In this document: piece after piece, positions 9,464 through 30,477 of the stretch
Numbering within the stretch: the first letter of the stretch is position 1
Layout: every line of letters begins with the position of its first letter
DNA from: Daejeonella sp.
GTDB lineage: Bacteria; Bacteroidota; Bacteroidia; Sphingobacteriales; Sphingobacteriaceae
Assembly (NCBI RefSeq): GCF_017495225.1
Contig: NZ_JAFEIG010000004.1
Coordinates: 62,001 to 126,000 of the forward strand
Direction of reading: 5' to 3'
Length of the DNA: 64,000 bases
Position numbers and translations under genes: made by a program
Notes under the pieces: model-generated
Told to the model about the DNA's origin: nothing
What the model saw: the letters and a program-made list of their open reading frames with translations, nothing else
Databases searched by the model: none

Positions 9464-10324
9464 ATGAAAGCATTTTTCTTAAGCTCAGTGTTTTCGATTT
9501 TTATTTCAATTAGTTTATTTGCGCAAAGTGATTCGCTTGCTGTTATAAATGCTCAATGGACTAAAGAAAAAATCACTAAGGGCATTATATTAAAAACCTT
9601 CTGGTTTCAAAACACCTTATTCAATTCCAATCAAAACGTAAGTGTTTTGGAAGTAAACAGAAAGGGGAAATATGTGTTTGACCTTGGTTTTGATGCTAAA
9701 AAGCTAATTACAACAGGGGATTTTGGAAAACAAGCAAATGCTATAGCTGCCCTAAATGGTACTTTTTTTGATATTGCCAATGGGGGTTCGGTTGATTATA
9801 TTAAATCAAATGGTGAGATAATTAACGAAAACCGACTTTCAAAAAATGGGAAAAGAGCCAATCACCAAAAATCAGCTCTATTGTTTCAAGAAGGTAAATT
9901 AAGTATAGCAAAGTGGGACGGGAAAGCTGATTGGGAAAAAACACTCGTGGCTGATGATATCATGGTTAGCGGACCCCTATTAATTTTGAACCAAAGCGAA
10001 GAAAAATTAGACACCGCAAATGTCTTCAACAAAACCAGACATCCAAGAACCGCTGTAGCCATCACAAAAAACAATAAAGTTTTATTAATTACAGTGGATG
10101 GACGCAATGCCAATTCGGGTGGTATGAGTTTATTTGAATTAAGTAAGTTGATGCGCTGGCTTCATGCCGATGATGCTATAAACCTTGATGGTGGTGGTTC
10201 TACCGCTCTTTGGATAAATAATTGGGGTGAAAATGGGATCGTAAACTATCCCACAGACAATAGAAAATGGGATCATGAGGGACAAAGAAAAGTCGCAAAT
10301 GTGCTCCTCCTAAAGAAAAAATGA
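9464..10324 (+). CDS. phosphodiester glycosidase (NAGPA domain) family protein, secreted
   Basis: A 286-residue protein with a signal peptide (about residues 1-20, ending LFAQ) and the NAGPA/DUF2233 fold. Visible family motifs are AALNGTFFD in the first half, VSGPLLI, RHPRTAVAI and the characteristic NLDGGGSTALW near the C-terminus. Relatives are proposed to hydrolyse sugar phosphodiesters or act on cell-surface polysaccharides; its precise substrate is unknown. It stands between the terminator at 9.4 kb and the DUF4175 gene and may be a single-gene unit. Confidence 0.82.
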   Translation: MKAFFLSSVFSIFISISLFAQSDSLAVINAQWTKEKITKGIILKTFWFQNTLFNSNQNVSVLEVNRKGKYVFDLGFDAKKLITTGDFGKQANAIAALNGTFFDIANGGSVDYIKSNGEIINENRLSKNGKRANHQKSALLFQEGKLSIAKWDGKADWEKTLVADDIMVSGPLLILNQSEEKLDTANVFNKTRHPRTAVAITKNNKVLLITVDGRNANSGGMSLFELSKLMRWLHADDAINLDGGGSTALWINNWGENGIVNYPTDNRKWDHEGQRKVANVLLLKKK

Positions 10325-10416: not shown

Positions 10417-13400
10417 ATGAATGCTTCCGAAGAAAATTATATCTATCTATTAGCTAAAATTGATGGTTTTATTCGGAAATATTACCTCAATAAGATCTTA
10501 AAAGGACTTTTATTTCTTTTTGCTTCGGCTTTAATCGCTTTTATCTTTATAATAACCGCAGAGCATTTCGCACGCTTTGACTCAATTATAAGAGCTTTTT
10601 TATACTACTCATTTATTCTAATCAATCTTTGGGTATTGGCAGGATATATTTTGATCCCAATATTGTCTTATTTCAGACTGGGTAATACTATATCGCATGA
10701 ACAAGCATCAAACATTATCGGACAACATTTTGCACCCATAAAAGATAAGCTTCTCAATACCCTCCAACTAAAAAAACTTTACGATTCAAACCCCGAGCAG
10801 CGCCAATTAATTGATGCCAGCGTTAATCAAAAAATTGCAGAACTAAAGCCAATTCCCTTCACATCTGCAATTACCTTAAATGATAATATCAAATACTTTA
10901 AGTTTGTGCTCGGCCCTTTAGCTGTTCTGATATTCCTGTTTTTTGCAGCACCAAGCATTTTAAGCGATAGCACCACCCGTTTAATCAACTATGACCAGCA
11001 ATTTATTGAAAAGGCGCCCTTTGAATTTAAAATTTTAAACGAAAGCCTTTCCGCAGAACAAGGAAGTGATTTTACTGTGCTAGTTAAAATGGTGGGCAAT
11101 CAAATACCAGCCGAATTATACCTTGAAAGCGGCCAGAATAGCTTTAAGCTAAAGCGAGAAAACACTATTCGTTTCAATTATACCTTTAAGAATGTTCAAA
11201 AAAACCAAAAATTCAGACTAAGTGCAGGTAATTTTAAATCGGATGAGTATTCTCTTGAAGTAAAAACGAAACCAAGTATTTTAAACTTTGACGTTTTTAT
11301 CGAATACCCTAAGTACCTCCAAAAGAAAAGTGAGAATTTAAAAAACTCAGGCGATTTATTGGTTCCTGAGGGTTCAAAAATAAATTGGAAGTTTAATGCT
11401 GAAAATAGTGATCTAATTGATATTCAAATAAATACAAAAAAATATCGGATTAGCCAGACTAATTCTAATCTATTTAAATTCAGTTACCAAGCATTAAAGA
11501 GCTCTACTTATCGTGTAAGTCCAGGCAAAAGCGGAATTAATTCAAGCCAATCGGTAAACTATCAAATTCAAGTAATTCCGGATCTTTTACCTCAAATTGA
11601 GCTTAGTGAAAGTCAAGATTCTATCAATAAACAGGTTTTATACTTTACCGGCCAGATTAGCGATGATCACGGTATTTCGAAGCTTACATTCAATTACCGA
11701 GTTCTAGATCCAAATAAAAAAGCTAAAGAGATCACAAAAACTATCGAATTTGATAAGAACTCCAATCAGAGCAGTTTTATCCATGCATGGGATATATCAG
11801 CAATTTTAGGTGATGAAATTGAATATTATTTCGAAGTGTTTGATAATGATGGGGTTAATGGACCTAAATCAAGTAAAACTATTAGTAAAAAATTAAAAGT
11901 TCCTTCTCAAAAAGACATCGATCGGATTCTTGAAGCAAAATCAGAAAAAATCAAAGACAAAATGGAGGAGGCCATTAAAAAGGCTAAAGAACTCGAAAAA
12001 GAAAGCAAAAAGCTAAACCAAGAACTTCTCAACAAAAGCAAGCTGGGCTATGAAGAGAAAAAACAATTTGAAAAGCTGTTGGAAAAGCAAAATGACTTAG
12101 AAAATCTGGTAAAAGAAATACAAAACGAAAACAAAGAGAATAGTTTAAGCCAAAAATCAATAGAAAATGAAGAAATTCTTGAGAAAAAAAGGCAAATAGA
12201 AGAATTGTTCAATAATGTACTAGACGAGAAGACAAAAGAAATTTTAAAAAACATCGAAAAACTGCTTCAAAAAAACATGAAGGAGCAAAGTCGTGAGGAT
12301 TTATCCAAAATTCAAATGGATAATAAATCGCTACAAAAAGAGCTTGATAGAATTTTAGAACTATACAAGCAGCTTGAATTTGATCAATTACTAAGTGGAG
12401 CCATTGAAAAACTAGGTCTATTGGCGCAGGAACAAGATAAACTAGCCGAAAAGAGCACACAAAAAAATGCCGACCTCAATAATCTCAAAAATGAGCAAAA
12501 TGACTTAAATGAAAAATTCAATGAATTAAAAAAAGATTTTAATGAATTAAGTCAGAAAAATGAAGATTTAGAAGAAAAAAACAATTTCGATGAGCCACAA
12601 AAAGATTTAGATCAAATAAATCAAGAGCTTAAAGAAAGTCTGGATAAACTAAACAAAAAAGAGCAAAAAGCTGCAGCAGAAGAGCAGAAACAAGCGGGAG
12701 CTAAAATGCAAGAGCTTTCCAATAAGCTTAAAAAAATGCAAGAAGAGGAAGAGGAACAGGAGGATAAGATAAACAGCAGTGAGTTAAGGCAATTATTAGA
12801 AAACTTATTAAGCGTCTCTTTTGAACAAGAAAAAATAATGAAAGAGTTGCGTGGTATAAGCACTATTAACCCAGATTATGTATTAAAAATCCAAAAACAA
12901 AAAAACATACAAGTCAATTTTAAACTAATTGAAGACAGCCTTTATTCTCTTAGTAAGCGAGTTCCTCAAATTCAATCAACAGCCAATAAAGAGGTCCAAA
13001 TAATAAATCTAAACGTAAAAAATGCACTTGAAAACCTAGCTGATCGTAAAACAGCCGAAGCAAATCGCGACCAGCAATATGCCATGACCTCCATTAATAA
13101 TTTAGCCTTAATGCTTACTGAAGTATTAGATCAATTAGAAAAAGCTCAACAAAATGGGAAATCGGGAGGAAAGGGTAAAAAGAAACAAAGTTTGTCGCAA
13201 CTCAGCAAAATGCAGGAGCAATTAAATAAAAACATGCAAAAGGCTCGTGATGAAATGCAAAAGCAAGGTCAGCAAAAACAAGGCAATCAGAAAGGAAATA
13301 TGAGTGAAAATTTTGCTAAAATGGCCCGAGAACAGCAAATGATTAGGCAATCTATGCAAGAAATAAACAGATTAGAAAATAAAGATGGACAGGGCGGTCT

Positions 13401-13734
13401 CGGGAATTTGGAAAAAATAATAAAAGAGATGGAACAAACTGAGACGGATCTCGTAAACAAGAGAATTAAAGAGGAAACACTAGAAAGACAAAAAGAAATT
13501 CTGAGCAAACTATTGGATGCCGAAAAAGCTGAAAATGAACGCGATGAAGAAGAAAAAAGAGAAAGTACTGAGGGAAAAAATCAGGCACCTATAAATTCGA
13601 AATTGATGCTTGATTACCTTAAAAACAAAGAAAAAGAGACTGATTTACTTAAAACAATCTCACCATCATTTAATTCATTTTATAAAATAAAGGTGTTAGA
13701 TTATTTTAAATTTTTAAATTCGGGCAATAAATGA
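10417..13734 (+). CDS. DUF4175 family membrane-anchored coiled-coil protein
   Basis: A very large (1105-residue) protein of the DUF4175 type found in Bacteroidota. Three hydrophobic segments near residues 25-45, 55-75 and 160-180 anchor it; a beta-rich region (about 190-490) containing Ig-like stretches follows; then about 500 residues of Lys/Glu/Gln-rich heptads form long coiled coils, with a Gln/Gly/Lys-rich segment near residues 910-975. Its function is unknown to me. The gene overlaps the RsbW-like ATPase gene by four bases (ATGA), so translation is coupled. The coiled-coil codons make long antisense frames that are not genes. Confidence 0.8.
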   Translation: MNASEENYIYLLAKIDGFIRKYYLNKILKGLLFLFASALIAFIFIITAEHFARFDSIIRAFLYYSFILINLWVLAGYILIPILSYFRLGNTISHEQASNIIGQHFAPIKDKLLNTLQLKKLYDSNPEQRQLIDASVNQKIAELKPIPFTSAITLNDNIKYFKFVLGPLAVLIFLFFAAPSILSDSTTRLINYDQQFIEKAPFEFKILNESLSAEQGSDFTVLVKMVGNQIPAELYLESGQNSFKLKRENTIRFNYTFKNVQKNQKFRLSAGNFKSDEYSLEVKTKPSILNFDVFIEYPKYLQKKSENLKNSGDLLVPEGSKINWKFNAENSDLIDIQINTKKYRISQTNSNLFKFSYQALKSSTYRVSPGKSGINSSQSVNYQIQVIPDLLPQIELSESQDSINKQVLYFTGQISDDHGISKLTFNYRVLDPNKKAKEITKTIEFDKNSNQSSFIHAWDISAILGDEIEYYFEVFDNDGVNGPKSSKTISKKLKVPSQKDIDRILEAKSEKIKDKMEEAIKKAKELEKESKKLNQELLNKSKLGYEEKKQFEKLLEKQNDLENLVKEIQNENKENSLSQKSIENEEILEKKRQIEELFNNVLDEKTKEILKNIEKLLQKNMKEQSREDLSKIQMDNKSLQKELDRILELYKQLEFDQLLSGAIEKLGLLAQEQDKLAEKSTQKNADLNNLKNEQNDLNEKFNELKKDFNELSQKNEDLEEKNNFDEPQKDLDQINQELKESLDKLNKKEQKAAAEEQKQAGAKMQELSNKLKKMQEEEEEQEDKINSSELRQLLENLLSVSFEQEKIMKELRGISTINPDYVLKIQKQKNIQVNFKLIEDSLYSLSKRVPQIQSTANKEVQIINLNVKNALENLADRKTAEANRDQQYAMTSINNLALMLTEVLDQLEKAQQNGKSGGKGKKKQSLSQLSKMQEQLNKNMQKARDEMQKQGQQKQGNQKGNMSENFAKMAREQQMIRQSMQEINRLENKDGQGGLGNLEKIIKEMEQTETDLVNKRIKEETLERQKEILSKLLDAEKAENERDEEEKRESTEGKNQAPINSKLMLDYLKNKEKETDLLKTISPSFNSFYKIKVLDYFKFLNSGNK

Positions 13735-14162
13735 TCAACCAAAAAGAATATTCTGATAATACTTCATTGTACACACTGCAATTGGCTTCAAAGATTGACA
13801 GTATTACGCTATTGGAAAATTTTATCGATGAGCTGAATGTAAAATATAATTTCAGCGATGAAGTGTATGCCAATGTTCTTACTTGCTTAAGTGAAGCGCT
13901 TATCAATGCTATTTTACACGGAAACGCCCAAAACCCAGAAAAAAAGGTTTACATAAACCTTGAGGTAATAGAAAATAAACGCTTGGTTTTCACCGTTACC
14001 GATGAGGGAAACGGCTTTGACTTTAACAATATACCAGATCCTACAGCTCCAGAAAACCTTGAAAATCTCAGTGGAAGAGGTATTTTCATCATAAAAAAAC
14101 TGGCTGATCAATGCATTTTTAATTCCAAAGGAAACGAACTGGAACTTCATTTTAAAATTTAA
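13731..14162 (+). CDS. RsbW-like ATP-binding protein (anti-sigma-factor-type GHKL ATPase)
   Basis: A 143-residue stand-alone GHKL ATPase domain like the anti-sigma kinases RsbW and SpoIIAB. The N-box is visible as EALINAILHGN, and the G-boxes as DEGNGFDF and GRGIFIIKKLAD. There is no sensor or transmembrane part. No STAS antagonist or ECF sigma gene is adjacent, so the partner is unknown. It is translationally coupled on both sides: ATGA overlap with the DUF4175 gene and TAATG overlap with ybeY. A role in regulating its membrane neighbour is inference only. Confidence 0.82.
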   Translation: MINQKEYSDNTSLYTLQLASKIDSITLLENFIDELNVKYNFSDEVYANVLTCLSEALINAILHGNAQNPEKKVYINLEVIENKRLVFTVTDEGNGFDFNNIPDPTAPENLENLSGRGIFIIKKLADQCIFNSKGNELELHFKI

Positions 14163-17237: not shown

Positions 17238-17241
17238 GTAT

Positions 17242-17502
17242 ATGAGTCAGTCGGATATAATCGCATCAGCAGGTGTTACACTCCTACTCATTGCCTTTTT
17301 CTTAAACCTGAAAAAGATAATGAGTACAGATAATAAATGGTATAGCGGACTCAATATTGTTGGGGCTGGACTTTGTGGCTATTCGTCCTACCTGATATCA
17401 TTTTACCCTTTTGTAATATTGGAGGGTGTTTGGGTATTAGCTGCATTAAGCTCTTTTATTAAACATGTTCCACGTGAAACAATTGTAAAAAAAGGAGATT
17501 AA
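17242..17502 (+). CDS. small membrane protein, CBU_0592 family
   Basis: An 86-residue protein with three hydrophobic segments (about residues 5-23, 36-54 and 55-73), matching the small CBU_0592-type membrane family of unknown function. It starts 4 nt after the uup stop. Its last 12 codons contain the first parS-like palindrome (17466-17481), so the site is embedded in coding sequence. Confidence 0.72.
   Translation: MSQSDIIASAGVTLLLIAFFLNLKKIMSTDNKWYSGLNIVGAGLCGYSSYLISFYPFVILEGVWVLAALSSFIKHVPRETIVKKGD
17466..17481. promoter_or_regulatory. parS-like site 1 (ParB-binding palindrome)
   Basis: TGTTCCACGTGAAACA fits the widely conserved bacterial parS consensus TGTTNCACGTGAAACA exactly and is a near-perfect palindrome around CACGTG. 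It lies inside the 3' end of the small membrane protein gene. ParB bound at parS loads SMC and organises the origin region. No parA or parB gene is in this window. Confidence 0.85.
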
Positions 17503-17520
17503 AACAATAAAAAAATAAAT

Positions 17521-17536
17521 TGTTCCACGTGGAACA
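17521..17536. promoter_or_regulatory. parS-like site 2 (ParB-binding palindrome)
   Basis: TGTTCCACGTGGAACA is a perfect 16-nt palindrome of the parS type, starting exactly 55 bp after site 1, in the non-coding gap before mnmG. Confidence 0.88.
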
Positions 17537-17575
17537 TTAAAGAAAAACAGAAACGTTTAACGATTAAATTTAAAT

Positions 17576-17591
17576 TGTTCCACGTGGAACA
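17576..17591. promoter_or_regulatory. parS-like site 3 (ParB-binding palindrome)
   Basis: A second perfect copy of TGTTCCACGTGGAACA begins exactly 55 bp after site 2 and ends 9 nt before the mnmG start codon, so ParB binding could also affect mnmG transcription or translation start. Confidence 0.88.
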
Positions 17592-17600
17592 TCAAAGATT

Positions 17601-19463
17601 ATGTTTAAAAAATATGATGTAATTGTGGTAGGTGCCGGACATGCCGGATGCGAGGCAGCGGCGGCAGCGGCTAACCTTGGTTCTAGTGTTTTGCTCATTA
17701 CCATGAATATGGAAACCATCGCACAAATGAGTTGTAACCCGGCAATGGGTGGTGTAGCGAAAGGACAAATTGTGCGTGAGATTGACGCCATGGGTGGATA
17801 CTCTGGAATAATCACAGACAAAACAACACTACAGTTTCGAATGCTAAATAGTTCTAAAGGACCAGCGATGTGGAGCCCAAGAGCACAAAGCGATAGAAAA
17901 AGATTTGCTGAAGAATGGAGATTGGCATTAGAACAAACACCCAATGTCGACTTCTGGCAAGATACTGCTACCTCTCTAATTATCGAGGATAATAAGGTTT
18001 GTGGAGTAAGAACATCTTTGGGAATCAAGATCGAATCAAAGGCAGTTGTTTTAACCAATGGGACATTCTTAAACGGAATAATACATGTGGGAGAAAAAAA
18101 ATTTGGTGGTGGTAGAACTGGAGAAAAATCTGCAACTGGTATAACAGAACAATTAGTCGAGTTAGGCTTCGAAGCAGGAAGAATGAAAACAGGAACTCCC
18201 CCACGTGTTGATGGTCGTTCATTGGATTATTCCAAAATGGAAGAACAATGGGGAGATGAAAAACGTGGAAGATTTTCATACACAGATGTGGAACTTCCTA
18301 CCGAACAAAGATGCTGCTGGATAACCTATACGAATGCTGAAGTACATGAAACATTGAAGGAAGGATTCGAAAAATCTCCAATGTTTACAGGAAGAATAAA
18401 AGGTTTAGGTCCGAGATACTGTCCATCAATTGAAGATAAAATAAACAGATTCGCTGAGCGCGATAGACACCAAATATTTGTAGAACCAGAAGGTTGGAAT
18501 ACAGTAGAAATTTATGTGAACGGTTTCTCAACTTCTTTACCTGAAGATGTACAATATAGAGCACTCACAAAAATACCTGGCTTTGAAAATGCAAAAATGT
18601 TCAGACCTGGATATGCTATTGAATACGACTTCTTCCCACCTACTCAATTGAACTTAACATTAGAGACTAAAAAAATTGAGCACCTATATTTCGCGGGACA
18701 AATAAATGGTACAACGGGATATGAAGAAGCGGCATGTCAAGGATTTATGGCGGGCATTAACGCTCATCAAAAAATCAATCAAAAAGAAGAGTTAATCTTA
18801 AAAAGAGCAGAGTCTTATATAGGAGTATTAATTGACGACCTTGTTACCAAAGGAACAGAAGAACCATATAGAATGTTTACCTCAAGAGCAGAACATCGTC
18901 TGTTACTGAGACAAGATAATGCAGACATCAGACTTAGCGGAATTGGACATGAATTGGGATTGATTAGTGATGAACGTTTAGAAAAGGTAAATCAAAAAAT
19001 CGCAAATGCTGATAAGATTGTAAGCTATTTAAAAAACACATCAATCGGACCGATAGCGGTAAATCATATATTGGAAAGTCAAGGTACACCCGGCATCTCA
19101 CAAAATATGAAAATGTTCCAATTAATTACACGACCACAAATAGGTTTTGAAGATTTAAGAAAAGCAGATCTGATATTCGATGGACTCTTAAAGAATTACG
19201 ATCTTGAAACTGTTGAACAAGCTGAAATAAAAGTAAAGTACGAAAGCTACTTTGAAAAGGAATTAGAGATCGTAGATAAAATGAAAAGAATGGAAGATCA
19301 AATAATAAATCCAGAATTCAATTATCGGGAACTCGTATCTTTATCAAAAGAGGCAAGAGAAAAGTTGATGAAAATAAAACCAAGAACTTTAGGTCAAGCT
19401 TCAAGAATTTCTGGAGTTTCACCATCAGATATTTCAGTTTTAATGGTACATATGAGTCGTTAA
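17601..19463 (+). CDS. mnmG: tRNA uridine-5-carboxymethylaminomethyl synthesis enzyme MnmG (GidA)
   Basis: MnmG, with MnmE, makes the cmnm5 modification at wobble U34 of several tRNAs, using FAD and methylene-THF. The 620-residue product starts with the FAD-binding [16 protein letters not shown] motif and contains [24 protein letters not shown] and [12 protein letters not shown], all typical of the family, plus a helical C-terminal domain (about 550-620) for MnmE/tRNA contact. In many bacteria mnmG lies near the replication origin and the par locus; here it directly follows three parS-like sites. No Shine-Dalgarno is seen. Confidence 0.95.
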
Positions 19464-19595: not shown

Positions 19596-21230
19596 ATGGT
19601 CAATTTTAAAAGAACACTAAGTTTAACCATTGTGATATTAGGAATAATATCAAATTTCTTAATTTCATCCTGTGCAAGTGTGCAAGCACCTACTGGCGGA
19701 CCTAAAGACACGATCCAGCCGGTAATCATTAAAGAGCTTCCAAAAAATTTGACAAAAAATTTTAATGTCAAAAAAATAGAAATTGAATTCGATGAGTTTA
19801 TAAAATTGAGTAATGAGTTTACGGAAATTAGTATATCGCCAAGTATGGATATCCCACCAACATACAAGGCAAAAAAAGAAAAACTTGAAATAAATTTTGA
19901 AGAAGCACTAATACCAAATACAACTTATACCATAAATTTTGGAAAAGCAATTTTAGATGTGAACGAAGGAAACATTCTGAAAAACTATACCTACGTATTT
20001 TCAACAGGAAATGAAATCGACTCACTTTCAATATCCGGTAAAGTAATTAACTCATTAACAAAACAAAAAGTAAAAGAGGTCACCGTATTTATTTTACCAA
20101 TAAGTCAGGATTCTTTATTTGGTAAAAAAAGGCCAAACTTTTTTGCAACAACTGATACAGCGGGAAATTTTAAACTATCGAACCTAAGAGAGGATACTTA
20201 TCGAATTTATGCATTAAACGAACAAGGCGGAGGAGATCGGATTTACAATGGGAGATCAGAAGAAATAGCTTTTCTAAAAAATCCAATTAAACTAAATAAA
20301 GACACAACAGATATTTTATTAAGCCTTTTTAAAGAGGTACCAAAACAGTTTTCAATCCTAGATAGAAAAATAGAAGCAGATGGAAAAATTTTACTCACCT
20401 TCAATAAAGCAATAAAAGATCCATCTGTTGAAATAATAGAACCACTAAATCTAAATAATCTAAAAACAGTAGAATTTTCAAATACACGTGATTCAGTAAG
20501 AATCTGGCTACCAGAATTAACATTTGATTCAATAAAAGTGGCAGTCAATTCATCCAACATAGCATTAGATACAGTCAATTTAAGAAGAAACAAGAAGGAT
20601 AACTACACAGAAACAATAGGTATTACCGATAATACAAGTAATGGAAAATTAAGACCTGGATCAGAATTAAAGATTAAGTTCTCGGCACCAATAAAATCAG
20701 TAAATGAAAAACTAATTAGCATAATGGAAGATTCAATTCCCTTAAAAAATTATACATTATTGGAAGATATAAATCTACAAAGAGGCTATACGATAAAATA
20801 TCCATGGCGACTTAATAGACAATACCAACTAAAAATAGACAATAATGCAATAGAAGATATAAGAGGAAATAAATCAAAAGTTTATAACAGAAAATTTGAA
20901 TTAGATGTTGAAGACAATTATGGAAGCATATCTATAAATATAACAGTTCCAGATACAAGTAAAAATTACATAATACAATGGTTATCAGAAGATTATAAGG
21001 TACTAAAAGAAGATAATATAAGTAAAAATCAAGTATTAAATTATACACGATATCCTACAGGAAAATATAAAATAAGAGTAATATACGACTACAATAAAAA
21101 TAAGGAATGGGATACGGGTAATGTCATATTAGGAATACAACCAGAAAACACTTGGAATTTTGAAAAAACAATTACCCTTCGACCAAATTGGGATTTAGAA
21201 GAAAAAATTACTATTCCGAATCCGGAATAA
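19596..21230 (+). CDS. lipoprotein with bacterial Ig-like (SbsA-type) domain
   Basis: A 544-residue protein with a lipoprotein signal peptide (LISSC, lipidated C26) followed by APTGGPKDT, a start I associate with Bacteroidota Ig-like-domain lipoproteins. An Ig-like domain covers about residues 40-130 (EIEFDEFIKL to TYVFSTG), then a carboxypeptidase-regulatory-like repeat (about 140-220) and more beta domains. It is probably an outer-membrane lipoprotein of unknown role. Its sense strand is markedly A-rich. The last 20 nt overlap the 3' end of the convergent carbonic anhydrase gene. Confidence 0.78.
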   Translation: MVNFKRTLSLTIVILGIISNFLISSCASVQAPTGGPKDTIQPVIIKELPKNLTKNFNVKKIEIEFDEFIKLSNEFTEISISPSMDIPPTYKAKKEKLEINFEEALIPNTTYTINFGKAILDVNEGNILKNYTYVFSTGNEIDSLSISGKVINSLTKQKVKEVTVFILPISQDSLFGKKRPNFFATTDTAGNFKLSNLREDTYRIYALNEQGGGDRIYNGRSEEIAFLKNPIKLNKDTTDILLSLFKEVPKQFSILDRKIEADGKILLTFNKAIKDPSVEIIEPLNLNNLKTVEFSNTRDSVRIWLPELTFDSIKVAVNSSNIALDTVNLRRNKKDNYTETIGITDNTSNGKLRPGSELKIKFSAPIKSVNEKLISIMEDSIPLKNYTLLEDINLQRGYTIKYPWRLNRQYQLKIDNNAIEDIRGNKSKVYNRKFELDVEDNYGSISINITVPDTSKNYIIQWLSEDYKVLKEDNISKNQVLNYTRYPTGKYKIRVIYDYNKNKEWDTGNVILGIQPENTWNFEKTITLRPNWDLEEKITIPNPE

Positions 21231-21732
21231 ACCAATTAGAATACATTTTATAGTTTTCGGGAAGCTTTTTCAACAAAGCAATTTGCTCATCAGTTAATGA
21301 TTTAATTTTACGAGCTGGAATACCAGCGTATAAAAAACCAGACTCGCAGCGCATATTTTCTAGAACTATAGCACCTGCAGCAATAATACAAAACTCTTCA
21401 ACTACTGCAGCATCCATTACAATAGCTCCCATACCAATAAGTACATGGTCTTGAAGTACACAGCCATGCACTAAAGCATTATGACCAATAGAAACGTTAT
21501 TGCCAATAATGGTTGGGGCTTTTAAATAGGTACAATGTATAACCGCCCCATCCTGAATATTAGTATTATCACCAATAGTAATAAAATTTACATCTCCCCT
21601 AATAACCGCACTAAACCATACAGAACAATGTTTTCCTATAGTTACATCACCTACAATAGTAGAGTTTTCGGCCAAAAAACAATCCTTTCCGATAGTAGGA
21701 TAAACTCCTTTAACTGGTAATATTAGTGGCAT
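21211..21732 (-). CDS. gamma carbonic anhydrase family protein (left-handed beta-helix)
   Basis: A 173-residue left-handed beta-helix protein with hexapeptide repeats and the three expected zinc-binding histidines H66 (AVIHC), H84 (SIGHN) and H89 (LVHGC). It resembles YrdA/PaaY-type gamma carbonic anhydrases; true carbonic anhydrase activity in this subgroup is not certain. It lies 9 nt downstream of nadB on the same strand and is probably co-transcribed with it. Its 3' end overlaps the convergent lipoprotein gene by 20 nt. Confidence 0.88.
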   Translation of the reverse strand: MPLILPVKGVYPTIGKDCFLAENSTIVGDVTIGKHCSVWFSAVIRGDVNFITIGDNTNIQDGAVIHCTYLKAPTIIGNNVSIGHNALVHGCVLQDHVLIGMGAIVMDAAVVEEFCIIAAGAIVLENMRCESGFLYAGIPARKIKSLTDEQIALLKKLPENYKMYSNWFIPDSE

Positions 21733-21741
21733 AATTTAAAT

Positions 21742-23331
21742 TTAAAATACAGTATCATGTGGTTTTTGGGCATGAGATTTATAGTCGGTATTAAAATGTA
21801 AACCACGACTCTCTTTACGCAATTTAGCTGATTTAACTACGATATAGGCATTCTGAATCACATTTCTTAATTCACATAACTTAACAGAAAGTGTAGTCTT
21901 TTTATAAAAGGATTCAGTTTCTTCAAATAATAAACCTAAACGACGCATGGCACGATCTAATCTAAAATCGGAGCGAACTATCCCCACATAATCACTCATA
22001 ACCTTTTGAGTCTCACGTAAATTATGAGTAACCAAAATATCCTCATTAGATAATTTAGTATCAGTTTCATCCCATTCAGGAATATGTTCAGGAATTGTAT
22101 AACTATTAAAAACCTTTATTGCATCTTCAAAAATACGATGTGCAAAAACAGGAGCTTCTAATAAAGAGTTAGAAGCCAAACGATTAGCTCCATGTAAACC
22201 AGTACTAGCACATTCCCCACAAGCATAAAGTCGATGAATAGATGATTTACCATCTTTATCTACCATAATACCACCACACATATAATGCGCTGCAGGAGTA
22301 ACTGGAATTAAATCATGAGTCATATCAATTCCAATACTTAAACATTTGGCATAAATATTTGGAAAATGCGATAAAATATCAGCTTTAGAGCGATGACGGA
22401 TATCCAAATACACAAAATCATCTCCAGATTTTTTCATTTCAGCATCAATAGCACGAGCTACAATATCACGTGGAGCTAAAGAACCACGCTCATCATACAA
22501 ATGCATAAATTCTTGCTCATTCCTTGTTTTAAGAACACCACCAAAGCCACGAACAGCTTCAGAAATTAAAAAAGAAGGATATTCACCAGGATTATAAAGT
22601 GCAGTAGGATGAAATTGAATAAACTCCATATTACGAACTTTTGCTTTAGCGCGATAGGCCATAGCAATACCATCACCCGTAGCAATAACTGGATTGGTAG
22701 TATTCGAATAAATATGTCCAGCACCTCCCGATGCCATTAAAGTTACTTTAGATAAAAATTTCTCAACTTTATTCGTCGCAGTATTCAAGGCATAAATACC
22801 ATAGCATTCAATATCTTCAGAATTTTTATCAACAAAAACACCAATATGATGCTGTGTTATTAATTCAACAGCAAAGTAATGTGTAAGAATTTCAATATTA
22901 GGATTATTGTGAATTTGTTGCAATAAAGAACGTTCAATCTCTAAACCAGTAATATCCTTATAATGTAGAACCCTACTTTCAGAGTGACCACCTTCTTTAG
23001 CTAAATCAAAAACACCTTTTTTAGTCTTATCGAAAGATGTACCATATTTAATAATTTCATCAATTCGTTCTGGACCTTCTTTAACTACTAATTCAACAAT
23101 AGCTTGATCACATAAACCATCACCAGCAATTAGAGTATCTTCAATATGTTTATCAAAAGAATCTTCTTCCTTATCCACAACAACTGCTACACCACCTTGG
23201 GCATATTTAGTATTAGATTCATCTTCACTTGCCTTTGTAACTATCAGAACCTTACCATATTGCGCAGCTTTTAAAGCAAAACTTAAACCAGCAATACCAG
23301 AACCAACAACTAGAAAATCGACATTTCTCAT
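21742..23331 (-). CDS. nadB: L-aspartate oxidase NadB
   Basis: NadB oxidises L-aspartate to iminoaspartate, the first step of de novo NAD synthesis; NadA then makes quinolinate. The 529-residue flavoprotein has the FAD motif VVGSGIAGLSFALKAA at the N-terminus, the SNTKYAQGG motif, the HPTAL active-site stretch and HRLYACGECASTGLHGANRLASNSLLEA-type C-terminal FAD contacts (this stretch begins near residue 369). Length is normal. It diverges from nadA across the AT-rich 23.3-23.7 kb region. Confidence 0.95.
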   Translation of the reverse strand: MRNVDFLVVGSGIAGLSFALKAAQYGKVLIVTKASEDESNTKYAQGGVAVVVDKEEDSFDKHIEDTLIAGDGLCDQAIVELVVKEGPERIDEIIKYGTSFDKTKKGVFDLAKEGGHSESRVLHYKDITGLEIERSLLQQIHNNPNIEILTHYFAVELITQHHIGVFVDKNSEDIECYGIYALNTATNKVEKFLSKVTLMASGGAGHIYSNTTNPVIATGDGIAMAYRAKAKVRNMEFIQFHPTALYNPGEYPSFLISEAVRGFGGVLKTRNEQEFMHLYDERGSLAPRDIVARAIDAEMKKSGDDFVYLDIRHRSKADILSHFPNIYAKCLSIGIDMTHDLIPVTPAAHYMCGGIMVDKDGKSSIHRLYACGECASTGLHGANRLASNSLLEAPVFAHRIFEDAIKVFNSYTIPEHIPEWDETDTKLSNEDILVTHNLRETQKVMSDYVGIVRSDFRLDRAMRRLGLLFEETESFYKKTTLSVKLCELRNVIQNAYIVVKSAKLRKESRGLHFNTDYKSHAQKPHDTVF

Positions 23332-23339
23332 AAGAAAAT

Positions 23340-23738
23340 ATAATAGAATAGAGCCATTAACAAAGATGTTAATAAGCTATTCAAAGATGTTAATTTAGTA
23401 GCAAAACACGTTGAATAAAAAACAAAGAAGAGTAAAAATAGTTCGAGTAAGGTTAAATTAACTTATTTTTGAATAAGTTTTAATCAATTATGACAAAGTA
23501 ATCCACTTTTTAACGATTGAAAAAAATCCACATATAAATAAATGAAAAAAAATTAGGTAAAATAAAATACCTGATAATCAAATACATAGTATCAAGAGTC
23601 TGTGTAGAAGTTGTTGATAAATAATTAAAAACAAGAAAAAGGATAAAAAAATATCCAATTTTTAAACATTACCAACACACTAATAAACAATAAGATTCTT
23701 ATTTAAATAATAAATAGTATTTATTGAATAGTTGATAA
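23340..23738. other. candidate chromosomal replication origin (oriC), AT-rich non-coding region
   Basis: This 400-bp gap between divergent nadB and nadA has no credible gene and is extremely AT-rich. It holds DnaA-box-like 9-mers (consensus TTATNCACA): TGTTAATAA (23367-23375, complement one mismatch), TAATCCACT (23499-23507, two), AAATCCACA (23524-23532, two), TGTGTAGAA (23601-23609, complement one) and TGTTGATAA (23612-23620, complement one). CAAAGATGTTAAT occurs twice, 21 bp apart (23361 and 23382). Base-composition asymmetry of the plus strand appears to change across it, and three parS-like sites lie about 6 kb away. There is no perfect DnaA box and no dnaA nearby, so this is a candidate. 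Confidence 0.5.
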
Positions 23739-24731
23739 ATGAATACCTTCGAAGAATTAAATAGCAAAGGTTTTATAGATGAATTGATTGATCCATCACT
23801 TGATTTATTTGCCGAAATTAAACGATTAAAAAAAGAGAAAAATGCAGTTATATTGGCGCACTTTTATCAGGAACCAGATATCCAAGACATCGCAGATTAT
23901 ATTGGCGATAGTTTGGGATTATCTCAGGAAGCCGCTAAAACAGATGCAGATATAATTGTTTTTGCTGGAGTTCATTTTATGGCTGAAACGGCTAAAATTT
24001 TATCTCCAAATAAAAAAGTTTTATTACCAGATTTAAAAGCAGGATGTTCATTATCAGATAGTTGTCCGCCACGATTATTTGCAAAATTTAAAGAAAAATA
24101 TCCTGATCACATGGTAATAACTTATGTGAATTGCACGGCAGAATTAAAAGCAATGAGTGATATTGTTTGTACTTCATCAAATGCAGTTCAAATAGTGGAA
24201 AGCTTACCAAAAGATCAAAAAATTATATTCGGTCCAGATAGAAATCTTGGGGCCTATGTGGCAAAGAAAACAGGCCGAGATTTGGTCCTTTGGAATGGTG
24301 CATGTATGGTGCATGAGATATTTTCGCAACAAAGAATTGTGAAATTAAAAAGCAGACATCCAGAAGCCAAATTTATAGCGCATCCAGAATGTGAAGATGT
24401 GATTTTACAAATGGCGGATTATATTGGTTCAACAACAGGTTTATTGAAATATACGATCAATAATCCCGCAAATGAATTTATTGTAGCAACAGAAAGTGGA
24501 ATTATCCACCAAATGGAAAAGGCGAGTCCGAATAAAACCTTTATACCTGCTCCACCGAATAATTCTTGTGCTTGCAATGATTGTCCGCATATGAAAAGAA
24601 ATACTTTAGAAAAGTTATATTTATGCATGAAAAATGAACTCCCAGAGGTTAATGTTCCTATGGATATTATTTTACAAGCGCAAAAACCCATTGAAAAAAT
24701 GCTGGAGATTTCCGCAAAACTTGGTTTATAA
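23739..24731 (+). CDS. nadA: quinolinate synthase NadA
   Basis: NadA condenses iminoaspartate with dihydroxyacetone phosphate to give quinolinate, using a 4Fe-4S cluster. The 330-residue product has [15 protein letters not shown] near the N-terminus, which contributes to the substrate site, and conserved cysteines at C103 (KAGCSLSD), C189 (NGACMVHE) and C282 in the CACNDC cluster, matching the three cluster ligands of the family. It diverges from nadB across the AT-rich region and is followed 3 nt later by a symporter gene. Confidence 0.95.
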
Positions 24732-24734
24732 TTT

Positions 24735-25970
24735 ATGACTGAACAATCAGCTGGATTTTTAAAGAATTATGGCAGTATTATCAAATTACTGATCGGAATT
24801 AGTATTGGAACCCTATTAGGTTTAATATTGGGTAAAAAAGTAGAGGTACTTAAACCTCTTGGTGATATCTTTTTGAACCTTCTTTTTACCGCTGTAATTC
24901 CCCTCATTTTTTTCGCAATTTCTTCATCTGTTGCCAATATTGACAGAAGTAAAAAAATGGGTAAACTGATGATTATTACCCTTTTCGTTTTTATTGGAAC
25001 AGTTTTAATATCAGCTGCTTTAACTGTTTTAGCTGTTTGGTTATTTCCATTGCCTCAAACCCTTGAATCTAGTGCTCCAATTGTTGAGGAGATTAAAAGT
25101 CAAAATTGGGGACAACAAGCAACGAGTTTACTAACTGTAAATGAATTTTACGAATTACTCTCTCGCAAAAGCATGTTGGCTTTTATTATTTTTTCTTTGC
25201 TTGTGGGATTTGCTACTTCTCGTGCGGGTGAGTCTGGTGAAGCTTTCAAAAAATTTCTCCTTGCCGGAGATGAGGTAATGAAGCAATTATTGATTTTAAT
25301 CATGAAAATTGCTCCAATTGGTCTCGGAGCCTATTTTGCCTATCAAATAGGTGTTTTCGGTCCACAGCTTTTCGGTACTTACGGTCATTCAATGGCTATT
25401 TACTACGGATTAAGTCTATTTTATTTTGCTGTTTTTTATTCTCTATTTGCATATATCGCTGGGGGTATTCCGGCTATAAAAATCTATTGGAAGAACAATA
25501 TAATCCCATCTTTTACATCTTTGAGCACCTGCAGCAGTATTGCTACTATTCCCTCAAATTTGACCGCTGCGCGGGCTATGAAAATCCCGGATCATATTGC
25601 CAATTTAGCTATTCCTTTGGGTGCTCCGCTTCATAAAGATGGATCCAGCATCTCGGCAATTATTAAAATTGCGGCCGTTTTTGCCATTATGGGTAAAGAT
25701 TTTATGAATCCTGAAACTATTTTGATAGCATTGGGTTTAACTATTATTCTAAGTGTGGTTGAAGGCGGAATTCCCAATGGCGGATACATTGCAGAAATCA
25801 TGATCATGACCGTTTATGGTTTCCCGGTAGAGATGCTTCCCGTGGTGATGATTATCGGAACTTTAGTTGATCCCATGGCTACCCTTTTAAACGCGACCGG
25901 TGATACCGTTTCGGCTATGCTAATTACCAGATTTTCGGAAGGTAAAAATTGGTTAAAAAACGCATTTTAA
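24735..25970 (+). CDS. dicarboxylate/amino acid:cation symporter (DAACS family)
   Basis: A 411-residue inner-membrane carrier of the glutamate/aspartate/dicarboxylate:cation symporter family with about eight hydrophobic segments plus two re-entrant loops. The serine-rich HP1 motif is visible as LSTCSSIATIP, followed by AIPLGAPLHKDGSS, and the TM8 motif NATGDTVSAML gives the substrate- and cation-binding Asn and Asp. Substrate is probably aspartate, glutamate or a C4-dicarboxylate. It lies 3 nt downstream of nadA, so import of aspartate for NAD synthesis is an attractive but unproven link. Confidence 0.88.
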   Translation: MTEQSAGFLKNYGSIIKLLIGISIGTLLGLILGKKVEVLKPLGDIFLNLLFTAVIPLIFFAISSSVANIDRSKKMGKLMIITLFVFIGTVLISAALTVLAVWLFPLPQTLESSAPIVEEIKSQNWGQQATSLLTVNEFYELLSRKSMLAFIIFSLLVGFATSRAGESGEAFKKFLLAGDEVMKQLLILIMKIAPIGLGAYFAYQIGVFGPQLFGTYGHSMAIYYGLSLFYFAVFYSLFAYIAGGIPAIKIYWKNNIIPSFTSLSTCSSIATIPSNLTAARAMKIPDHIANLAIPLGAPLHKDGSSISAIIKIAAVFAIMGKDFMNPETILIALGLTIILSVVEGGIPNGGYIAEIMIMTVYGFPVEMLPVVMIIGTLVDPMATLLNATGDTVSAMLITRFSEGKNWLKNAF

Positions 25971-25976
25971 TAAAAT

Positions 25977-26696
25977 ATGAATCCATTTTCTTTCATTTCT
26001 GTATTACTAGCCCTGTTTTTATTTAATCAGCCGGAAGATTTAAATCTAAAATTTGAAACTTCCCAACTTATTGTTGTAACAAGTGATAGCTGGAATAAAA
26101 TTGAAGGTAAAATGGCTGTTTATGAATATGAAAATGGGCGGTGGAATTTAGTGATGAACGATATTCCAATTGTTACCGGAAGAACAGGAATGGCCTGGGC
26201 AAATGGTTTACACAAGGATGAGTTAAATTCCGGAATATTGAAGAAAGAAGGTGATGGTAAATCGCCGGCTGGAATTTTTCGGCTTAGTGGACTATTCGGA
26301 TATCAAGACATTAAATCGAAGATGAATTCTTTGAAAATTAATGAGCGGACTTTCTGTGTAGATGATTCAAAATCGGTTTATTACAATCAAATAGTAAGTA
26401 CTGATACTTTAAAAAAAGATTGGGATTCGGCAGAAACCATGCTCATGAAAAGTGATGCCTATAAATTCGGAATATTTGTGGATTATAATGTGAATCCTGC
26501 AAAGGCACAGGCAGGATCCTGCATTTTTATGCACATTTGGAGCGGAAGCAATAGTCCCACAGCCGGTTGCACCGCTATGAAAGAGGGTGATATTTTAAAA
26601 TTGATAAATTTCCTTGATAAGAATAAAAATCCAATTTTAGTTCAAGCGCCACTTGCCGAATATGAAAAAATGAAGCGTTTTTATAAATTACCATAA
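25977..26696 (+). CDS. L,D-transpeptidase (YkuD) family protein
   Basis: A 239-residue protein with a hydrophobic N-terminal segment (about residues 5-17) that should direct export, and a YkuD-type catalytic motif with H186 (FMHIW) and C198 (TAGC). GDGKSPAG near residues 93-99 is the usual substrate-loop motif. It is predicted to cross-link peptidoglycan 3-3 or attach proteins to it, or to act as an L,D-carboxypeptidase. It starts 6 nt after the symporter gene on the same strand. Confidence 0.8.
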   Translation: MNPFSFISVLLALFLFNQPEDLNLKFETSQLIVVTSDSWNKIEGKMAVYEYENGRWNLVMNDIPIVTGRTGMAWANGLHKDELNSGILKKEGDGKSPAGIFRLSGLFGYQDIKSKMNSLKINERTFCVDDSKSVYYNQIVSTDTLKKDWDSAETMLMKSDAYKFGIFVDYNVNPAKAQAGSCIFMHIWSGSNSPTAGCTAMKEGDILKLINFLDKNKNPILVQAPLAEYEKMKRFYKLP

Positions 26697-26750
26697 TTCC
26701 TTCATCGGTCTTGCCTTAAAAATTAGCACCTTTGTAACTAAATAATTAGC

Positions 26751-27800
26751 ATGTTTGAAAATAAGGGACGTACGGAAATTGAACAATTAGGCGAATTTGG
26801 CTTAATTGATCATCTTACAAAAAATTTCGCCATCAGTAATAAAAGCACCATCAAGGGAATTGGTGACGATGCTGCAGTTTTAAATTTTGAGGACAAAAAA
26901 ACTTTAATTTCAACCGATCTTTTATTGGAAGGCATTCATTTCGACTTAGCCTATACCCCTTTAAAACATTTAGGCTACAAGGCCGTACAAGTCAATCTAA
27001 GCGATATTTATGCCATGAATGGTATGGCACACCAAATCACTGTTTCTATTGGCTTATCGAGCAAATTTCCGCTAGAGGCTATTGAAGAATTATATCAGGG
27101 AATTAGTATTGCTTGTGAAAAATATGGTATTGATTTGGTGGGTGGCGATACCAGCTCTTCAAAACAGGGTTTAGTTATTAGTGTAACGAGTATCGGTACA
27201 GCAGATGAAAAAGATATTTGCTATAGAAATACTGCTAATGAAGGAGATTTAATTTGTGTTTCTGGCGATTTGGGTGGTGCTTATATCGGCTTACAATTGC
27301 TGGAAAGAGAAAAAAATATCTTTTTAGAAAACCCAAATATTCAACCAGATTTAGAGGGTAAAGATTATATCGTTGAACGTCAGTTAAAGCCGGAAGCGAG
27401 GAAAGATATCATTGAATCCTTAAAATTGATGAAAATCAAGCCTAGCTCCATGATTGATGTTTCGGATGGTTTAGCTTCCGAAATTCTGCATATCTGCAAG
27501 CAATCAAATAAGGGATGTAATTTATACGAAGAAAAAATTCCCATCGACCCAATGACTTATGATACCGCACGTGATTTTGGTATCGATCCAACGGTTTGTG
27601 CCTTAAATGGTGGTGAGGATTATGAATTGCTCTTCACTATCAAACAGTCTGATTTTGAAAAAATTAAAAACAATCCCGACATTTCTATTATTGGGCATGT
27701 TACAGAAGCTTCTGCGGGATGTAATTTAATTTCAAAATCGCAAAAAGTACATCCAATTCAAGCACAGGGCTGGAACTCTTTAAAAGGAAATCAAGAATAG
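26751..27800 (+). CDS. thiL: thiamine-monophosphate kinase ThiL
   Basis: ThiL phosphorylates thiamine monophosphate to the active cofactor thiamine diphosphate. The 349-residue product has the PurM-like fold motifs GIGDDAAVL, STDLLLEGIHFD, VGGDTSSS, VSGDLGGAYIGLQLL, DVSDGLASEI and NGGEDYELLF in the expected order. No thiamine riboswitch or other thi genes are visible here. A weak -7-like CACCTTTG lies at 26727-26734. Confidence 0.95.
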   Translation: MFENKGRTEIEQLGEFGLIDHLTKNFAISNKSTIKGIGDDAAVLNFEDKKTLISTDLLLEGIHFDLAYTPLKHLGYKAVQVNLSDIYAMNGMAHQITVSIGLSSKFPLEAIEELYQGISIACEKYGIDLVGGDTSSSKQGLVISVTSIGTADEKDICYRNTANEGDLICVSGDLGGAYIGLQLLEREKNIFLENPNIQPDLEGKDYIVERQLKPEARKDIIESLKLMKIKPSSMIDVSDGLASEILHICKQSNKGCNLYEEKIPIDPMTYDTARDFGIDPTVCALNGGEDYELLFTIKQSDFEKIKNNPDISIIGHVTEASAGCNLISKSQKVHPIQAQGWNSLKGNQE

Positions 27801-29886: not shown

Positions 29887-30168
29887 ATGATAAAAACTTT
29901 TGGCGATAAGGAAAGTGAAAAAATTTGGACTGGAATTCGTTCTAAAAAATTGCCATATGAGATACAAGATATTGCACGGAGAAAATTAAGAATGCTTAAT
30001 AATGCTCAGGATGTCAATGATTTAATAATTCCACCAGCAAATAGATTGGAAAAATTAAAAGCAAAGCTTCAAGAATATTATAGTATTAGAATTAATAATC
30101 AATGGAGAATTATTTTTCGTTGGCTTAATAATGATTCTTACGATGTTGAGATTGTTGACTACCATTAA
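29887..30168 (+). CDS. higB: HigB-type toxin (RelE superfamily mRNA interferase)
   Basis: A 93-residue RelE-fold toxin of the HigB group, expected to cleave mRNA on the ribosome. Family features are the LPYEIQDIARRKL helix, PPANRLEKLKAKL, YYSIRINNQWRIIFRW with the conserved Arg residues, and the terminal VEIVDYH. The toxin gene comes before the antitoxin, as is usual for higBA, with a 9-nt gap. The pair sits between two repeat-rich non-coding stretches, which suggests it was acquired. Confidence 0.9.
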   Translation: MIKTFGDKESEKIWTGIRSKKLPYEIQDIARRKLRMLNNAQDVNDLIIPPANRLEKLKAKLQEYYSIRINNQWRIIFRWLNNDSYDVEIVDYH

Positions 30169-30177
30169 TAAAAAGAT

Positions 30178-30477
30178 ATGACTACCATTAAAAACATCCA
30201 CCCTGGTGAAATTCTATTGGAAGAATTTCTAATCCCAATGGAAATTTCTGCTTATCGTTTAGCGAAGGAAACATTTATCCCACAAACACGAATTTCGGAA
30301 ATTGTAAAAGGTAAAAGAAGAATTACTGCTGATACTGCATTACGTTTTTCCAAATACTTTGGAACTAGCGCAAAATTTTGGTTGGGACTTCAGGATGATT
30401 ATGATCTTGAGGAAGAAAAAATTCAAAAAGCGAATGAGTTAGAAGAGATTAAACCCATAGAGGGAAAAGCGTTATGA
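30178..30477 (+). CDS. higA: HigA-type antitoxin (HTH XRE)
   Basis: A 99-residue antitoxin starting with the HigA signature IHPGEILLEEFL, followed by a helix-turn-helix (about residues 22-70) and the FWLGLQDDYDLE motif. It neutralises HigB and represses the operon. The bases around its stop codon are duplicated 427 bp downstream (see the repeats at 30469 and 30896). Confidence 0.92.
   Translation: MTTIKNIHPGEILLEEFLIPMEISAYRLAKETFIPQTRISEIVKGKRRITADTALRFSKYFGTSAKFWLGLQDDYDLEEEKIQKANELEEIKPIEGKAL

Follow-up and report, generated by a model that had tools for sequence, protein, structure and literature searches.

Introduction

Replication origins are usually sought at dnaA, and in E. coli the gene gidA neighbours oriC. 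To our knowledge, the origins of Bacteroidota have been little studied. In the Ori-Finder paper, dnaA is the default indicator gene and TTATCCACA the default DnaA box, and the text is without nadA or nadB (PMC6323995, PMC10225481). For the basal unwinding system (BUS), in which tandem DnaA boxes lie beside the unwinding site, the published rule requires three or more NAN trios on the opposite strand to the boxes, no farther than 16 bp from a box with at most two mismatches (PMC8287927), the trio reading 5'-CTA-3' on the complementary strand (PMC8235120). The open literature that we searched yielded no description of nadA or nadB as a neighbour of oriC.

Here we analyse a stretch of 64,000 bases (the window), bases 62001–126000 of contig C16 (130,961 bases) in a draft genome of 3,103,100 bases and 36 contigs. 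Judged by NadA, its nearest named relatives are Pseudopedobacter and Pedobacter (Sphingobacteriaceae). An earlier note on this DNA had proposed a candidate replication origin between divergent nadB and nadA genes, and had named the two genes correctly. We find the proposal supported by GC skew in four closed relatives, by conserved DnaA boxes and by linkage to parS. Comparative evidence thus places the chromosomal oriC, with a high degree of confidence, in the nadB–nadA gap together with about 0.5 kb of nadB.

Results

The gap and its DnaA boxes

The features of the locus are collected in Table 1. The gap had been described as AT-rich and free of genes, and this is borne out over 407 bp with a GC content of 20.9%, compared with 35.4% for the window; it is both the most AT-rich and the least stable 400 bp of the 64 kb. 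The presence of DnaA-box-like 9-mers with one or two mismatches is also confirmed, but their number is eight (up to two mismatches to TTATCCACA) rather than the five first reported. Mononucleotide shuffles of the gap hold 1.7 such boxes on average and none of 1000 reached eight; box counts are inflated in AT-rich sequence, and most of the gap boxes carry two or three mismatches. The gap is nevertheless the densest 400 bp of the window in boxes, and the enrichment is family-wide. A single gap box, TTATCAACA at 23612, has only one mismatch, and the gap of this genome contains no perfect TTATCCACA. The span originally put forward, 23340–23738, takes in the gap and leaves out the only perfect TTATCCACA of the window, which lies inside nadB; the origin unit probably reaches some 0.5 kb into nadB, the site of this strongest box. 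The 13-bp direct repeat of the earlier note, CAAAGATGTTAAT, is confirmed, with copies at 23361 and 23382, 21 bp apart. Its second copy, the AAAGATGTTAAT element, may be a weak box or an element of the nadB promoter.

Table 1 Features of the nadB–nadA locus and its parS cluster, in window coordinates
Feature	Position	Strand	Basis or remark
parS site 1 (TGTTCCACGTGAAACA)	17466–17481	.	Motif scan
parS site 2 (TGTTCCACGTGGAACA)	17521–17536	.	Motif scan
parS site 3 (TGTTCCACGTGGAACA), just before mnmG	17576–17591	.	Motif scan
mnmG (gidA)	17601–19463	+	TIGR00136, E 1.8e-251
nadB, L-aspartate oxidase	21742–23331	−	Gene call confirmed
DnaA-type box TTATCAACA in nadB, 1 mismatch	22826–22834	+	Perfect TTATCCACA at homologous offset (−503 to −515) in 14/49
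Perfect DnaA box TTATCCACA, nadB codons 51–53	23171–23179	+	Only perfect box of window; perfect at same offset in 29/49
Putative oriC core, conserved AT-rich nadB–nadA intergenic region	23332–23738	.	Composition, stability, conservation in 49 sequences, TTATCCAC enrichment
13-bp direct repeat, copy 1 (CAAAGATGTTAAT)	23361–23373	+	Poorly conserved in family
DnaA-type box TTATTAACA, 2 mismatches	23367–23375	−	TTATCCACA, TTATTCACA, TTCTCCACA or TTATCAACA at same position in many relatives
13-bp direct repeat, copy 2, conserved AAAGATGTTAAT element	23382–23394	+	Well conserved in relatives, unlike copy 1
Weak DnaA-type box TTATTCAAA, 2 mismatches	23468–23476	−	Box scan
DnaA-type box TAATCCACT, 2 mismatches, columns conserved	23499–23507	+	Box scan, alignment
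DnaA-type box AAATCCACA, 2 mismatches, columns conserved	23524–23532	+	Box scan, alignment
DnaA-type box TTCTACACA, 2 mismatches, first of pair 11 bp apart	23601–23609	−	Pair is TTATCCACA twice in Sphingobacterium L048
DnaA-type box TTATCAACA, 1 mismatch, second of pair	23612–23620	−	Box scan, alignment
Box A of abutting tandem, TTTTAAACA, 3 mismatches	23660–23668	+	TTATCCCCA in L048, L051
Box B of abutting tandem, TTACCAACA, 2 mismatches	23669–23677	+	TTTTCCACA in L048, L051
Trio-like element CTAATAAACAATAAG, 2 nt past box B	23680–23694	+	Conserved module
Probable DNA unwinding element	23681–23730	.	Least stable 50 bp of window
Weak DnaA-type box TTATCAACT at nadA start	23730–23738	−	Box scan
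nadA, quinolinate synthase	23739–24731	+	Gene call confirmed

Elsewhere in the window, two small adjoining ORFs at 29887–30477, about 6 kb from the putative origin, resemble by sequence a HigB-type toxin (93 aa) and a HigA-type antitoxin (99 aa).

Conservation in the Sphingobacteriaceae

The gap is kept in all 49 family sequences (the window included, and some of them perhaps near-duplicates), with lengths of 396–709 bp, mostly 400–480 bp, and 18–33% GC in loci of 31–47%. When the 8-mers of these gaps were ranked against dinucleotide shuffles, with no motif given, the most over-represented was TTATCCAC, the core of the DnaA box, seen 23 times where 0.8 were expected. It was followed by TATCCACA and, lower in the ranking, by TTAACATC, GTGTTAGT, TTATCAAC and TTATTAAC forms. 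Across 20 long loci the perfect box TTATCCACA occurs 18 times in the kilobase of nadB adjoining the gap and five times in the gap itself, with 0–2 occurrences in any other kilobase. The positions of the boxes are fixed across the family, at −161 and about −503 in nadB, at about +37, as a pair at about +269/+280 and as an abutting pair at about +328/+337, and columns that are degenerate in our genome read TTATCCACA, TTTTCCACA and TTATCCCCA in Sphingobacterium (L048, L051). Synonymous choice at the three nadB codons of the −161 box (GTT GTG GAT) is constrained, ranking 6 of 215 three-codon windows, which may be taken as a supporting, non-unique signal. Domain IV of DnaA retains GGRDHSTV.

The gap must also house the promoters of nadB and nadA, which may account for part of this conservation. 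One could go further and see in it nothing but a long stretch of divergent promoters, with operators and promoter elements of the two genes making up its repeats and conserved words. The NAD genes are indeed divergent, the conserved AAAGATGTTAAT by nadB and TTATTTATTGAA just before nadA could be promoter or leader elements, and the 13-bp repeat at its 21-bp spacing is operator-like; a literature search for NrtR linked to nadA or nadB in Bacteroidetes found nothing. We consider this explanation improbable, as it does not account for TTATCCAC being the top word or for the boxes inside nadB, nor for several of the observations below.

Strand-separated GC skew

The base counts that the earlier note had made in sampled rows hold in direction over the full flanks (20000–23331: A1322 C601 G463 T946; 23739–27200: A1112 C555 G674 T1121). 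The effect of gene strand, which it had raised itself, was removed by calculating the skew at 4-fold degenerate third positions separately for genes of the plus and of the minus strand. The closed relatives were covered by 20-kb samples; G058 alone was read unbroken, over 400 kb. As a separate observation on composition, the plus strand of the window has a strong A excess at 11001–14000 (AT skew 0.29–0.35), over an ORF of 1105 aa (10417–13734).

In all four closed relatives the skew turns from negative to positive at nadB–nadA or no farther than tens of kilobases from it, and reverses about half a chromosome away, the sign change lying up to ~45 kb from the gap in G007. A skew minimum elsewhere, which the earlier note had named as a refutation of its proposal, was thus looked for in these relatives and did not appear. 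In G058 (5.20 Mb) it is mostly negative to 4.46 Mb and positive from 4.50 Mb, with nadB at 4.500 Mb and the opposite change near 2.1 Mb. The change falls at 1.43–1.50 Mb in G052 (6.12 Mb; nadB 1.472 Mb, opposite change near 4.5 Mb), at 0.26–0.35 Mb in G029 (4.40 Mb; nadB 0.316 Mb, opposite change 2.18–2.52 Mb) and at 0.96–1.00 Mb in G007 (4.32 Mb; nadB 0.956 Mb, opposite change 3.2–3.5 Mb). Gene direction is not the cause, because two of the relatives have nadB on the plus strand and two have it on the minus strand. A divergent promoter region leaves a skew change at this locus in closed relatives unexplained.

Within our own draft genome, where skew was read on one contig and is dominated by gene strand, the values are consistent with an origin at the gap: plus-strand genes go from −0.24 to −0.09 across it and minus-strand genes from +0.07 to +0.24, a shift of about +0.15 to +0.17 on both strands. 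Pooled over 20 loci, the skew of minus-strand genes is −0.06/−0.09 for nadB and the gene next to it and rises to at least +0.16; nadA itself has +0.18.

parS sites

The parS cluster that had been noted 6 kb away is present as three parS-like sites ~5.8 kb from the gap, and these are the only matches in the genome with fewer than two mismatches. Each of the 14 relatives searched has the parS pattern GTTYCACGTGRAAC, at between one and seven places, and in the 13 where nadB shares the contig the sites lie within ~8 kb of that gene. Sites of parS near the putative origin are seen in our own genome and in its relatives, and such linked sites are again left unexplained by a reading of the gap as promoters. 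The relative G058 departs from the usual two or three sites, with seven over 2.2 kb (C1:4492846–4495037). In G219 (Bacteroidia) seven parS-like palindromes recur every 99 bp over 0.6 kb (C24:13203–13809), with others on other contigs.

The closeness of parS and mnmG, together with the resolution of single-genome skew, which is only some 20 kb, would also suit an origin in another gap nearby, for example the parS-bearing 17238–17600 before mnmG. We hold this to be a shade less probable even than the promoter reading. In the 20 loci the bins between −3 and −10 kb contain no perfect box, and the maximum is at the gap and the adjoining end of nadB; the pooled third-position skew of plus-strand genes is negative from −10 to −3 kb, and that of nadA is positive; and the least stable DNA sits in the nadB–nadA gap.

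Tandem boxes and the unwinding site

Towards nadA, two abutting DnaA boxes are followed after 2 nt by CTAATAAACAATAAG, and this module is present in 45 of the 49 family gaps. A looser pattern built on it, YMACANNCTAAYAANNNWWA, has one match in our genome, at the nadB–nadA gap. The boxes, with three and two mismatches, thus form a tandem beside an easily melted AT-rich stretch: by nearest-neighbour energy the least stable 50 bp of the 64-kb window begins at 23681, one base past the CTAA anchor. The best 50-bp window of the gap ranks 1–3 for instability in 18 of 20 loci, mostly starting at the same anchor.

The strict trio rule of the BUS does not hold at CTAATAAACAATAAG, where CTA and ATA fit and AAC breaks the register. 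A permissive search discriminates poorly, with at least one loose match in 46 of 49 real gaps and in 25–36 of 49 shuffled ones. In Chitinophaga and its relatives, ~75–155 bp before nadA, the order is box, box, spacer and then CTAATAGTAGTG or CTAATAGTAATA, a four-unit DnaA-trio that is found in many Chitinophagaceae. We infer that the CTAATAAACAATAAG element of the Sphingobacteriaceae descends from a trio of this type.

The dnaA locus and other box clusters

Adjacency to dnaA, which is usual for oriC and not required, is not seen here. In our genome dnaA is on another contig (C33), and in closed relatives it is 0.7–1.5 Mb from nadB–nadA, with the exception of G016 (11 kb). The 460-bp gap before our dnaA (L232) contains a perfect TTATCCACA (C33:14321) and a one-mismatch TTATCAACA (14042), possibly for autoregulation. 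The same boxes would suit a start of replication at dnaA, with nadB–nadA as a secondary DnaA-binding site, for example a titration site. We give this hardly any credence: none of the four closed relatives has a skew change at dnaA, which lies inside an arm of uniform skew in each (positive in G058, at 0.65 kb, and in G029, at 1.047 Mb; negative in G052, at 1 kb, and in G007, at 4.27 Mb), and parS is near nadB, not dnaA.

A better cluster of DnaA boxes at another locus, which the earlier note had said would count against its proposal, does not appear among the genome-wide TTATNCACA matches listed, which run as far as contig C28, and where the tightest other cluster is a repeat array. Over the whole of our genome TTATNCACA is hardly enriched, with 125 matches and 105 in the reversed control, and box counts alone would therefore not find the origin.

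The array in question, a TTATGCACA cluster on contig C8 at 359.6 kb, was considered as an origin and rejected, being direct repeats before an ATPase gene and not DnaA boxes. Its TTGTGCA-type words (G000 C8 ~359540–359670; L227 ~9540–9670) lie between genes for an AAA-type ATPase and a small zinc-ribbon protein and mimic boxes in the TTATNCACA search.

Beyond the family

Among 38 nadA loci from Bacteroidota outside the family, the motif TTATYCACA occurs 35 times in the kilobase before nadA, compared with 0–10 times in other kilobases. In 50 genomes drawn from across the class, with the pairing of parS and nadA read by eye among the matches listed, a NadA identity of ~64% or more mostly goes with parS 3–27 kb from nadA and on one contig with it (examples are G205, G199, G225, G227, G231, G192, G224, G211, G220, G197, G215 and G207; G198 is an exception), and where NadA is at 54–62% parS is not near nadA. 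Skew gives no support yet outside the family, because 25 pooled non-family loci show no clear sign change at nadA. In one member of the Chitinophagaceae (L096) the upstream neighbour of nadA is not nadB, and the boxes clustered ahead of nadA in that family, with their trio, are a further feature that a nadB–nadA promoter region would not explain.

On these comparisons the same locus appears to be the origin throughout the Sphingobacteriaceae and, with less certainty, is probably the origin in neighbouring families. We lean slightly towards a wider view, that the DNA before nadA is the ancestral and still-used origin of a large part of the Bacteroidia, uncoupled from dnaA, with tandem boxes and trio intact in the Chitinophagaceae and decayed in the Sphingobacteriaceae, where strong boxes would have come to lie in the coding sequence of nadB.

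Discussion

The order of assembly at this putative oriC, its unwinding site and its dependence on DnaA are inferred from its anatomy. DnaA, encoded far away, would load on strong boxes within nadB and on the weaker ones of the gap and would spread from the abutting boxes at 23660–23677 across CTAATAAACAATAAG toward nadA. The AT-rich DNA at 23681–23730 beside nadA would then melt, helicases would load and two forks would depart in opposite directions, and the new origins would be segregated by ParB bound at parS, 6 kb away. Sharing the site with the nadA and nadB promoters could, hypothetically, allow transcription or the supply of NAD to affect initiation.

As a kind of element this is an ordinary oriC; what we did not find described in the open literature that was searched is its position. 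Several closed records are numbered from dnaA, which is apparently not where replication starts. As a stable marker, nadA offers a direct route to the origin in draft genomes, to oriC plasmids for Bacteroidota that are hard to manipulate genetically, and to growth-rate estimates based on read coverage. The full trio of the Chitinophagaceae and the broken one of the Sphingobacteriaceae, at the same spot, make the role of the trio testable.

Predictions of the DoriC and Ori-Finder kind (PMC6323995, PMC10225481) use the same class of evidence, that is skew, a box cluster and indicator genes, and DoriC may already list predicted origins for closed members of the family. The E. coli type of oriC at gidA/mnmG–mioC is similar in that mnmG is ~4 kb from the gap here and dnaA is not adjacent; it differs in that the core here is at nadB–nadA, with parS just before mnmG, and there is no evidence of shared sequence. 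The closest likeness in layout is to incC/BUS of B. subtilis (PMC6669920, PMC8287927), which also has tandem boxes, a short spacer, an element starting with CTA that runs into the most AT-rich stretch, and further boxes at a distance. The Sphingobacteriaceae differ in a trio register that breaks after CTA ATA, in boxes that are degenerate for the most part, and in a locus at nadA rather than dnaA, with strong boxes within the nadB gene.
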